From: Bacteroidota bacterium
GTDB taxonomy: Bacteria; Bacteroidota; Bacteroidia; Chitinophagales; JADIYW01
DNA: 64,000 nucleotides
Assembly: GCA_963169645.1 (NCBI GenBank)
Contig: CAUJCO010000006.1
Location: 1-64,000 of the forward strand
Direction of reading: 5' to 3'
The position numbers were made by a program, and so were the translations under genes. Below, piece by piece: positions 57,972 to 61,208 of this stretch (the stretch's first letter is position 1; each line of letters starts with the position of its first letter). Under the pieces are notes generated by a model, which saw only the letters and a program-made list of their open reading frames with translations, was not told the origin of the DNA and ran no database searches.

Positions 57972-58045
57972 GGTTCGGTAGTTCAGTTGGTTAGAATACG
58001 TGCCTGTCACGCACGGGGTCGCGGGTTCGAGTCCCGTCCGGACCG
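57972..58045 (+). tRNA. tRNA-Asp (anticodon GTC)
   Basis: Acceptor GGTTCGG/CCGGACC, anticodon loop CTGTCAC in CGTGC/GCACG stem, T arm GCGGG TTCGAGT CCCGT; CCA not encoded. Confidence 0.97.
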
Positions 58046-58060
58046 CTCAATGTGAGCCAA

Positions 58061-58125: not shown

Positions 58126-58617
58126 TCAGAAGCTACTTACGATGTTATATAAACCCCTATTTTGCATACGAGCAATATGATTTAATTGTTGATATTTAGA
58201 TAACTGTGTGCTGTAAAATTTGCTGTATGGTTTTGCATATCCATCACTAATCAGTTTCTCATTTATGCATGTTCCATCACTCAAAAAAACATACGCTAAA
58301 GTTCTGCTGAATAGATCAATCTCATTTTTAATTTCTGTTACAAAAGTAATTTCAGAATCGATTTGCAAAAGTTGATGCAAATAATTTTTTGATTGATAAC
58401 CTAACTCAATTAATAATTGACCTGGTAAATGTAGTTCTCTTTCGTCTTGTATTAATTTTCTACATCGTTTTATTTCAGGTGCGTCAATACCTAATAATCT
58501 AATTTCTATTTCTTTTTTGTTGAAAATATTATAACAAAATAATCCATCTCCATCCACCACTTTAGAAACTTTGTAGTGAGTAAATACATTTATTGGTTCT
58601 TTTGCATCAATATACAT
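58126..58617 (-). CDS. Thermonuclease (SNase) family protein
   Basis: KVVDGDGLFCYN...IEIRLLGIDAPEIKRCRK; SRTLAYVFLSDGTCINEKLISDGYAKPY. Confidence 0.9.
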   Translation of the reverse strand: MYIDAKEPINVFTHYKVSKVVDGDGLFCYNIFNKKEIEIRLLGIDAPEIKRCRKLIQDERELHLPGQLLIELGYQSKNYLHQLLQIDSEITFVTEIKNEIDLFSRTLAYVFLSDGTCINEKLISDGYAKPYSKFYSTQLSKYQQLNHIARMQNRGLYNIVSSF

Positions 58618-58710: not shown

Positions 58711-59514
58711 ATGGCAAAACAAAAAGGACTCGTAAAATACACCGGAACATTAGGTGATGTACGACATTTTAAAATTAAAGGACAGCAAGGATACTTTGCT
58801 GGAATGGTTGGTGGTCCAACCGACACACAAGTAAAAACAGCACCTGAATTTAAACGAACACGTGAGAACATGAATGAGTTCGGCGGTTGTGCAAAAGCAG
58901 GTAAATCGGTTCGTGTGGCTTTATCTGAAGTATTAAACGGCATGACTGACCCACAAGCAACTGGTCGTTTAACTTCTATAATGAAAAAAATCAATTTAGA
59001 AGATGGCACAGAAGCTCGTGGTGTTCGTAAAGTTGAAATAAGTACACAAAGAACTTACTTGTACAATTTTGGATTTGATAAAAACGTTTCCTTCGCTGGT
59101 ATTGTTTATGTGCCTTACTCTGCTACGCATTCTGTAGATAGATTAACAGGAACGTTGACAACTGTTGCATCAAATCCAACTAATGCGCTGAATGCTCCAG
59201 CAGGTGCAACTCACTTTCGTTTTATAAACGCAATCGGTGTCATTTCTGATTTCGTGTATAACGATACAACTAAAACTTATGAGCCAAGTAATGCAGCATT
59301 AAATGAAATGAGTAACACTACTTATGGTGCATATATGCCTTTAAATGCTCCGTACGCAGGCGAAAATTTAGATGTTGAGTTGCCAGTAGGTACTGTTATG
59401 ACTGCGGATGTATCTGTGTTGCATTGTTTAGGTATTGAGTTCTTCCAAGAAGTAAACGGCAACTATTATAAGTTTTCTTCAGGCAACTGTTTAGTTATTG
59501 ATAACGTTTACTAA
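58711..59514 (+). CDS. Uncharacterised Bacteroidota protein, MA(K/R)QKG...TRENMNEFG family
   Basis: MAKQKGLVKYTGTLGDVRHFKIKGQQGYFAGMVGGPTDTQVKTAPEFKRTRENMNEFGGCAKAGKSVRVALSEVLNGMTDPQATGRLTSIMKKI; intact 267 aa. The N-terminal pattern recalls uncharacterised Bacteroidota proteins from memory. Confidence 0.8.
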   Translation: MAKQKGLVKYTGTLGDVRHFKIKGQQGYFAGMVGGPTDTQVKTAPEFKRTRENMNEFGGCAKAGKSVRVALSEVLNGMTDPQATGRLTSIMKKINLEDGTEARGVRKVEISTQRTYLYNFGFDKNVSFAGIVYVPYSATHSVDRLTGTLTTVASNPTNALNAPAGATHFRFINAIGVISDFVYNDTTKTYEPSNAALNEMSNTTYGAYMPLNAPYAGENLDVELPVGTVMTADVSVLHCLGIEFFQEVNGNYYKFSSGNCLVIDNVY

Positions 59515-59515
59515 A

Positions 59516-59662
59516 ATGAAAGTATCAACAACCATATTTAGACGTGCAAAAAGAGATGGACGAAATCCATCTACAGGAGCAAGAACAAAATCATCAGAAG
59601 AAAGAAAAAAAGAAGCTAAGAGCAAAAGACAAAAGATGAAAAATGAAAGTCCTAGTGATTAA
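59516..59662 (+). CDS. Micropeptide with HU/IHF-arm-like motif (48 aa), not in the ORF track
   Basis: MKVSTTIFRRAKRDGRNPSTGARTKSSEERKKEAKSKRQKMKNESPSD; starts 1 nt after the stop of the 267-aa gene. Confidence 0.6.
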   Translation: MKVSTTIFRRAKRDGRNPSTGARTKSSEERKKEAKSKRQKMKNESPSD

Positions 59663-59771
59663 TCATATTGCAAGACTAAGACGTGCTAAACGGAAAGGTC
59701 GTAATCCGTCAACAGGTGCAAAAATGAGCAGAGCCAAAAGAGCTGGTCGAAATCCCGCTACTGGTGCTTAG
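59643..59771 (+). CDS. Micropeptide with two HU/IHF-arm-like motifs (42 aa), not in the ORF track
   Basis: MKVLVINHIARLRRAKRKGRNPSTGAKMSRAKRAGRNPATGA; overlaps the previous micro-ORF by 20 nt in another frame. Confidence 0.6.
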   Translation: MKVLVINHIARLRRAKRKGRNPSTGAKMSRAKRAGRNPATGA

Positions 59772-59793
59772 TTAAGTTTTATCCAAAGTATTG

Positions 59794-59830
59794 AATCCTG
59801 CAAGTAAATGCAGGATTTTTTATTTTTTTA
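59794..59830 (+). terminator. Terminator closing the 58.7-59.8 kb transcription unit
   Basis: AATCCTGCA-agtaaa-TGCAGGATT followed by T-rich tract. Confidence 0.85.
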
Positions 59831-60392
59831 TCAATTTAATATACATAGTCGGTATTAGGTGCAAATATGTATGACTTATGTACGGCTTATGTATAACTTA
59901 CCTATGCTTAAAACAAAGCAACACCCACACACAAAACCAAAAGAAAACAAGAAAAAAAAGGACAAAAAAAAGAAAAAAGAAAGCCTTTTGCTCAAGTGGT
60001 GCAGCTTGGGATGTCAAGGTTTTTGGGAAAAAAATACTACCTCTTTTATCCATTAAGAATAAACTACAGATAAAAAGAGTGTGGAGATTTTTTTTACAAA
60101 ATGCATTTTAACCTTGCAGCCCAAAAGCGTTGGCTTTAGTAAGCCACTTATCTTTGCTTTATTTTTTATTTTTTGGGATATGTGGTGTGGTTCAACACAA
60201 CATAATAATTTGTAGGTTTATTTTTAGTGTATGGACAAATAGAATAGATAGACTAATTAGACTATGTTGACTTTTGCCAGATGCCTGTGGTTTGCACTAT
60301 GGGGCAAGGGTGAGAATGCATGGAATTGTAATATGGTTTTATTTATGACAAAAGATTAATGGAATGCAGGCGCACGCTTGCTTTACGTGGTG

Positions 60393-60761
60393 AGGTGGCT
60401 GATGGAATGAAGATGCGATGGAGTGTAGGGATCGGGAGCGGATGAAAGTAGCGAACGCCCGGAACGGAATGCATTGGAATGGAAGAAGCTACCGCAAGCA
60501 CTTTTGGTTTCCTTTTTGCAGAATGATGAGGTTATGTACTAACGGGCAAGTGTGTGACCGAATGGAATGAACAAAATAACAGGATGCATGGAGTGGATTG
60601 TGCAGATGCATTGAAGGGTTTGCTATTTTTTGTATCTTTTTAAAAACAAAAAATATAGTGTAGGTATGCATCTGCAAATACACGCAATGCAATAGCATAG
60701 CTTTTGTGAAATGGAATGAAGGAACACTCTTGCTTATGGTGCTAAGGTGGCTGATGGAATG
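60393..60761. repeat. Degenerate direct repeat pair in non-coding DNA
   Basis: AGGTGGCTGATGGAATG exact at 60393-60409 and 60745-60761, each followed by GGAATGGAA(t/g)AAGC.ACCGCAAG-like sequence. Confidence 0.65.
60602..60675. repeat. Nested inverted repeat
   Basis: GCAGATGCAT 60602-60611 / ATGCATCTGC 60666-60675 enclosing CTATTTTTTG 60623-60632 / CAAAAAATATAG 60647-60658. Confidence 0.7.
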
Positions 60762-60878
60762 GAGCTTTAGCGGAATGGAATAAGCGACCGCAAGGCACGC
60801 CAAAATGTAGGCTTTTAGCATTTATAAAAAACACCATTATAAAACTACATAATTTTTATAAATGATGCTGTGGTTTTG

Positions 60879-60984
60879 GCTACTTAACATAGTGTGCTTA
60901 TGTGACAGCCATTATCCGGCATGAAATGAGCGTAGGCATGGCTGTGCGTAGCGTACACATAAGACCACATTATGTTTAAGTAGC
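60879..60984. repeat. Long imperfect inverted repeat (cruciform/structured RNA candidate)
   Basis: GCTACTTAACATAGTGTGCTTATGTG (60879-60904) versus CACATAAGACCACATTATGTTTAAGTAGC (60956-60984); internal ACAGCCAT 60905-60912 / ATGGCTGT 60938-60945. Confidence 0.75.
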
Positions 60985-61208
60985 TTCAGACCATTTTTAT
61001 TGGCGTGATTTTTTGTTTGTTGTATAGCATGGCTTATTTATTTTTATTGCACACAATGACACAAAGCACGCAATCAATGCAATAATAAATGAATGTGCCA
61101 TATAGCGTAGGTACAAAAAGCATGACAATAAAAATGGCTGCAACACCACAGATGCAGTAAAGGGTAGGCTTTAGCGTGGTATACTGCATAAGCCTACATT
61201 TAGCATGG

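Follow-up and report, generated by a model that had tools for sequence, protein, structure and literature searches.

The window, a 64,000-nucleotide stretch of Bacteroidota DNA, carries two overlapping micro-ORFs that are probably real genes and not debris, and whose peptides most likely derive from the arm tip of HU. Together they encode three copies of the motif (R/S)RAKRxGRNP(S/A)TGA, all placed between the stop codon of a gene for a 267-aa protein and an intrinsic terminator. A matching peptide, written in different codons, stands behind a diverged homolog of this gene in a second genome. These assignments, like those of function below, draw on comparisons of sequence.

Architecture of the micro-ORF array

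The features of the locus, in window coordinates, are:

57972-58046: tRNA-Asp gene, beside the nuclease-like and 267-aa genes
58126-58617, minus strand: staphylococcal-nuclease-like gene, adjoining the tRNA-Asp and 267-aa genes
58711..59514, plus strand: gene for the 267-aa protein, of an unnamed Bacteroidota family with 235 relatives in genome contigs
59516..59662, plus strand: micro-ORF 1 (ORF1), 48 aa, read as an ORF; holds unit 1 and then a 26-residue charged tail
59540-59581, plus strand: unit 1, RRAKRDGRNPSTGA, within ORF1
59643..59771, plus strand: micro-ORF 2 (ORF2), 42 aa, read as an ORF; holds units 2 and 3
Within 59643..59771, plus strand: unit 2, RRAKRKGRNPSTGA, within ORF2
C-terminal in ORF2 and ending at its stop, plus strand: unit 3, SRAKRAGRNPATGA
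59724..59771, plus strand: possible third micro-gene, MSRAKRAGRNPATGA, from an in-frame ATG just before unit 3
59793..59829, plus strand: intrinsic terminator 3' of ORF2, with a 10-bp stem, a 6-nt loop and a T-rich tail (hairpin 59793-59818)

ORF1 starts one base past the TAA of the 267-aa gene. ORF2 opens before ORF1 has closed: the two overlap by 20 nt in different frames, a layout of the coupled type, and both begin MKV. Re-reading the sequence confirmed the coordinates, lengths, sequences and MKV starts given in the initial annotation, as well as its placement of the ORFs behind the 267-aa gene; the hairpin bears out the terminator that it put after them. Because an in-frame ATG (59724) precedes unit 3, the array may consist of three tandem micro-genes, the last two of which are now fused. 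ORF1 runs on beyond the ancestral end (...STGA and stop in the relative described below) into its tail, which is rich in Lys, Glu and Ser.

The motif is rare. Across the whole 2.70-Mb genome, DNA coding for the exact pattern G-R-N-P-x-T-G occurs at four sites, once in each unit and once in the resident HU gene, and the motif appeared in 0 of 20,000 shuffles of the region. Units 1 and 2 are separated by seven synonymous codons and one non-synonymous codon, and codon differences among all three units are mostly synonymous.

Conservation of the peptide in a diverged relative

The closest of the 235 relatives of the 267-aa gene, a homolog with 84% identity, lies on contig CAUJFJ010000101.1 (L056) of the metagenome-assembled genome KLAP29. 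One base past the stop codon of this homolog, as for ORF1, begins a micro-ORF of 22 aa, MVKPVKVHRRAKRDGRNPSTGA, with a terminator directly 3' of it that corresponds to the one in the window. The spacing of stop and start is kept (TAA-A-ATG in the window, TAA-G-ATG in L056). Between the L056 core and unit 1, all 14 residues are identical and 14 of the 42 nucleotides differ, every difference being synonymous (0 non-synonymous). When 14 random substitutions were simulated under neutrality, assuming uniform substitution, the peptide stayed intact in 0 of 200,000 runs, with a minimum of 2 changes and a mode of 8. In the adjoining gene, 65 of 105 fourfold sites differ between the window and L056, so the divergence is old, not recent.

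An identical peptide despite this much nucleotide change argues for purifying selection on the peptide, which in turn is evidence of translation; we consider the peptide very probably selected and translated. L056 shows the pattern of a conserved microprotein: the peptide recurs at the equivalent site of a diverged relative, and the divergence is synonymous. The argument is built on one orthologous pair (window and L056) and three paralogous units, with two genomes carrying the peptide. The host of L056, a short contig in a metagenome bin, may be misnamed; the argument from conservation is independent of the host. Selection on the peptide had already been proposed from the differing codons of the units, and the mainly or only synonymous differences among the units and L056 strengthen that proposal.

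Distribution of the micro-ORF

About 115 loci carrying a homolog of the 267-aa gene were compared, and besides the window only L056 has a motif micro-ORF. The best 80 of the 235 relatives found by scanning genome contigs with the 267-aa protein were read, and the motif was absent behind the homolog at the other 79 loci (one of these, L089, ends at the contig edge). At most of the 79, a terminator stem starts no further than about 15-30 bases from the stop codon; at some, a DUF5675 gene takes this place instead. Whole genomes and one viral contig supplied about 35 more loci with a homolog, and these lack the motif as well. The initial annotation had looked to conservation behind homologs of the gene at 58711 as decisive; such conservation is present in L056, and it is confined to this one relative rather than general among the homologs.

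The signature of the motif followed by a stop was absent from 395 other sampled Bacteroidota genomes, bar one chance match with an internal in-frame stop. It was likewise absent from 99 relatives of KLAP29, a search in which the pattern did recover the KLAP29 copy as a positive control; in all, about 490 other genomes lack it. Searching 399 genomes of the order with the 42-aa peptide returned mostly HU genes, and a short-frame match in L048 was checked and is not a relative. The one match among viral contigs was out of frame and due to chance, and no carriers were found among the phages and plasmids searched. The micro-gene is a feature of a single small branch within the family of the 267-aa protein.

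Likeness to the HU arm tip and proposed origin

ORF2 matches the HU/IHF profile PF00216 over positions 54-69 of 90 (E = 2.7e-4, 21.6 bits), just under the gathering threshold of 22.4 bits. The other two peptides also score below the threshold. The L056 peptide (16.4 bits) aligns to positions 50-67, reaching upstream into the preceding strand, and ORF1 (14.9 bits) aligns very weakly to positions 52-77, running through its non-HU tail. The real HU of the genome covers positions 1-90. The likeness of the micro-ORFs to HU comprises the ascending strand and tip only, about 17 residues (positions 50-69), and the alignment holds no trace of the body or the return strand. As a result, none of the peptides belongs to PF00216 at full length, whereas the arm-tip motif RxGRNPxTG occurs three times in the window and once in L056. 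The best PDB sequence matches are IHF and HU, at E of about 0.05 and above.

The similarity to an HU/IHF arm tip proposed in the initial annotation is upheld by the sub-threshold ORF2 match and the PDB matches; the complete beta-arm that it described reduces to the ascending strand and tip. On sequence grounds, "HU/IHF arm mimic" is a valid description of the tip only, and the predicted peptides are not an HU protein.

At the peptide level, the units differ little from the arm of the HU that this genome encodes (KRAKREGRNPSTGAK), and the HU arm of the window genus, RAKR[DE]GRNPSTGAK, is the best match. KLAP29 has a different arm in its own HU (KRAARTGRNPQTGKE), which led us to reject recent duplication of the resident HU as the source of its micro-ORF. 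We suggest a single capture event, in a common ancestor of the window and KLAP29 copies, that placed an HU arm-tip fragment 3' of the 267-aa stop codon. The fragment would then have spread with the 267-aa gene while being kept at the peptide level, and in the window lineage it would have been tripled by tandem copying.

Putative production and function of the peptides

A TAA-N-ATG junction, or a start 20 nt inside the preceding ORF, is a typical layout for translational re-initiation. Ribosomes that have finished the 267-aa protein would re-initiate at the TAA-N-ATG of ORF1, and a second re-initiation would follow at ORF2, before ORF1 ends. The array shares with translationally coupled bacterial microproteins (<50 aa) its overlapping or one-base-spaced starts behind a longer gene and its escape from gene callers. 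Described examples are mostly membrane or regulatory peptides, and none is known to be an HU arm tip.

The micro-ORFs have RAxRxGRNPxTG in common with the arm tips of HU and IHF (PF00216), down to the proline by which both proteins intercalate DNA (PMC6523023, PMC6791836). Unlike these proteins of about 90 aa, they are 22-48 aa long, without a helical body, dimer interface or returning arm strand, and carry up to two tips in one chain. In the latter respect ORF2 resembles the synthetic IHF "tip chimer" peptide, which also places two DNABII arm tips in one short chain; the chimer is a designed immunogen of 20-residue segments, whereas the micro-ORFs occur in nature and have tips with no second strand (PMC6791836). 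A limited literature search returned nothing quite like HU arm-tip micropeptides, which is not proof of novelty.

Nucleic-acid binding is the guess that we rank as most likely for the function of the peptides. Contacts with DNA or RNA would probably be weak and sequence-independent, made by the Arg and Lys residues and the Asn-Pro tip, and would serve the 267-aa protein. A lone single-strand tip, with neither the hairpin and its second strand nor the dimeric body, should be a weak binder at best; the two tips of ORF2 could give it somewhat better binding. Overall, we see about an even chance that the micro-ORFs are translationally coupled micro-genes based on the ascending strand and tip of the HU arm, which were captured, kept and tripled, and whose products make weak contact with nucleic acids. 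This reading builds on the anatomy, position, conservation and synonymous divergence of the micro-ORFs.

Alternative explanations

The near identity of the units to the genome's own HU arm would also be expected if the micro-ORFs were functionless relics of a complete HU gene, left by decay or amplified as repeats, as the initial annotation had itself considered, and conservation over a short peptide in two genomes can mislead. Such remains should have left some trace of the body and return strand, and they would hardly be kept in the same place in L056 in different codons, with 14 synonymous and no non-synonymous differences. The mostly synonymous differences among the units and the differing HU arm of KLAP29 also speak against decay, which we regard as improbable. 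A basic linear motif with no relation to HU, such as a tail that binds RNA or the ribosome, might instead have converged on RAKRxGRNPxTGA, given that N-P-x-T-G is used by unrelated domains to which the peptides show weak profile matches. One of these is the 2-cysteine adaptor domain (2C_adapt, PF08793), in which two conserved cysteines flank NPxTG; membership was rejected, since neither micro-ORF has a cysteine and the match (E = 0.088) is below the cut-off. The other, NPXTG-anchored surface proteins (NF033846), have a signal peptide and a transmembrane anchor around NPXTG; peptides as short and basic as ours could not accommodate both, and the match scores 14.0 bits where the cut-off is 23.5. 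Convergence is unlikely, as almost every core residue equals that of the HU arm in the window genus and the likeness of the L056 peptide extends into the preceding strand.

The closeness to the genus HU arm, and the retention of the exposed tip alone, would also suit peptides that bind no nucleic acid and act as decoys, mimicking the HU arm for whatever recognizes it (a protease, a modifier, a topoisomerase partner or the factor of a rival element). No such partner is known, and the KLAP29 peptide does not track the resident HU arm, which makes a decoy role rather improbable too. A different route of expression would be a +1 frameshift near the 267-aa stop that yields the arm tip as a C-terminal extension in a minor, tailed form of the protein. 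In both genomes, ORF1 is read in the +1 frame relative to the 267-aa gene. This frame stays open for about seven codons upstream of the ATG, so a shift would give an in-frame fusion. The site has no known slippery sequence, both genomes offer a good ATG one base past the stop, and ORF2 independently repeats the coupled-start layout; a frameshift is accordingly doubtful, and we retain coupled micro-genes as the preferred reading.

The 267-aa gene and its genomic neighborhood

The 267-aa protein has no match in Pfam or NCBIfam and only weak matches among PHROGs. Its AlphaFold2 model (pLDDT 89.2) has a beta-rich C-terminal half, and no convincing structural relatives were found in the PDB or BFVD (PDB TM 0.26 or less by query length). 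The family is spread widely in Bacteroidota, with several copies per genome in some species. The gene is absent from the sampled genomes of the same genus and family, which suggests that the module was acquired by transfer. Nuclease-like genes also lie next to 267-aa homologs at L013, L016, L017, L018, L055 and L056, and these neighbors suggest that the nuclease-like and 267-aa genes form a traveling module. A repeat of the tRNA end, as a mark of integration, was sought at the window locus and not found.

Downstream of the array, at 60004-60115, lies a non-coding element (TGTCAAGGTTTTT...AATACTACC...GTGGAGATTTTTTT...CAAAA...TTTAACCTTG) with imperfect inverted-repeat ends, which is single-copy in this genome and has no match in Rfam. 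It also occurs downstream of 267-aa homologs at L008, L009, L056, L099, L101, L106, L117, L125 and L126, and on the minus strand at L016 and L017. Beyond this element, stretches rich in GGAATG-type repeats (window 60300-61155, L056 3461-4402) are up to 90% identical. Other recurrent neighbors are a DUF5675-type gene directly behind the 267-aa homolog (L129-L131, L133, L135 and L085) and a DUF6943 gene near the homolog and on the opposite strand in L056, with similar ORFs in L006, L007 and L055.

Implications

Tentatively, the locus could represent a horizontally spread module with free-standing HU arm-tip peptides that are re-initiated behind a carrier gene and amplified in tandem, acting as a minimal, body-less nucleic-acid binder or as a decoy for HU-recognizing factors. 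HU arms are thought to act only within the dimeric protein. If the reading is true, arm tips of 22-48 residues under selection would be an HU fragment with a life of its own. The array would then also offer a small test case for the birth of micro-genes, in which a fragment is captured behind a stop codon and subsequently copied in tandem.
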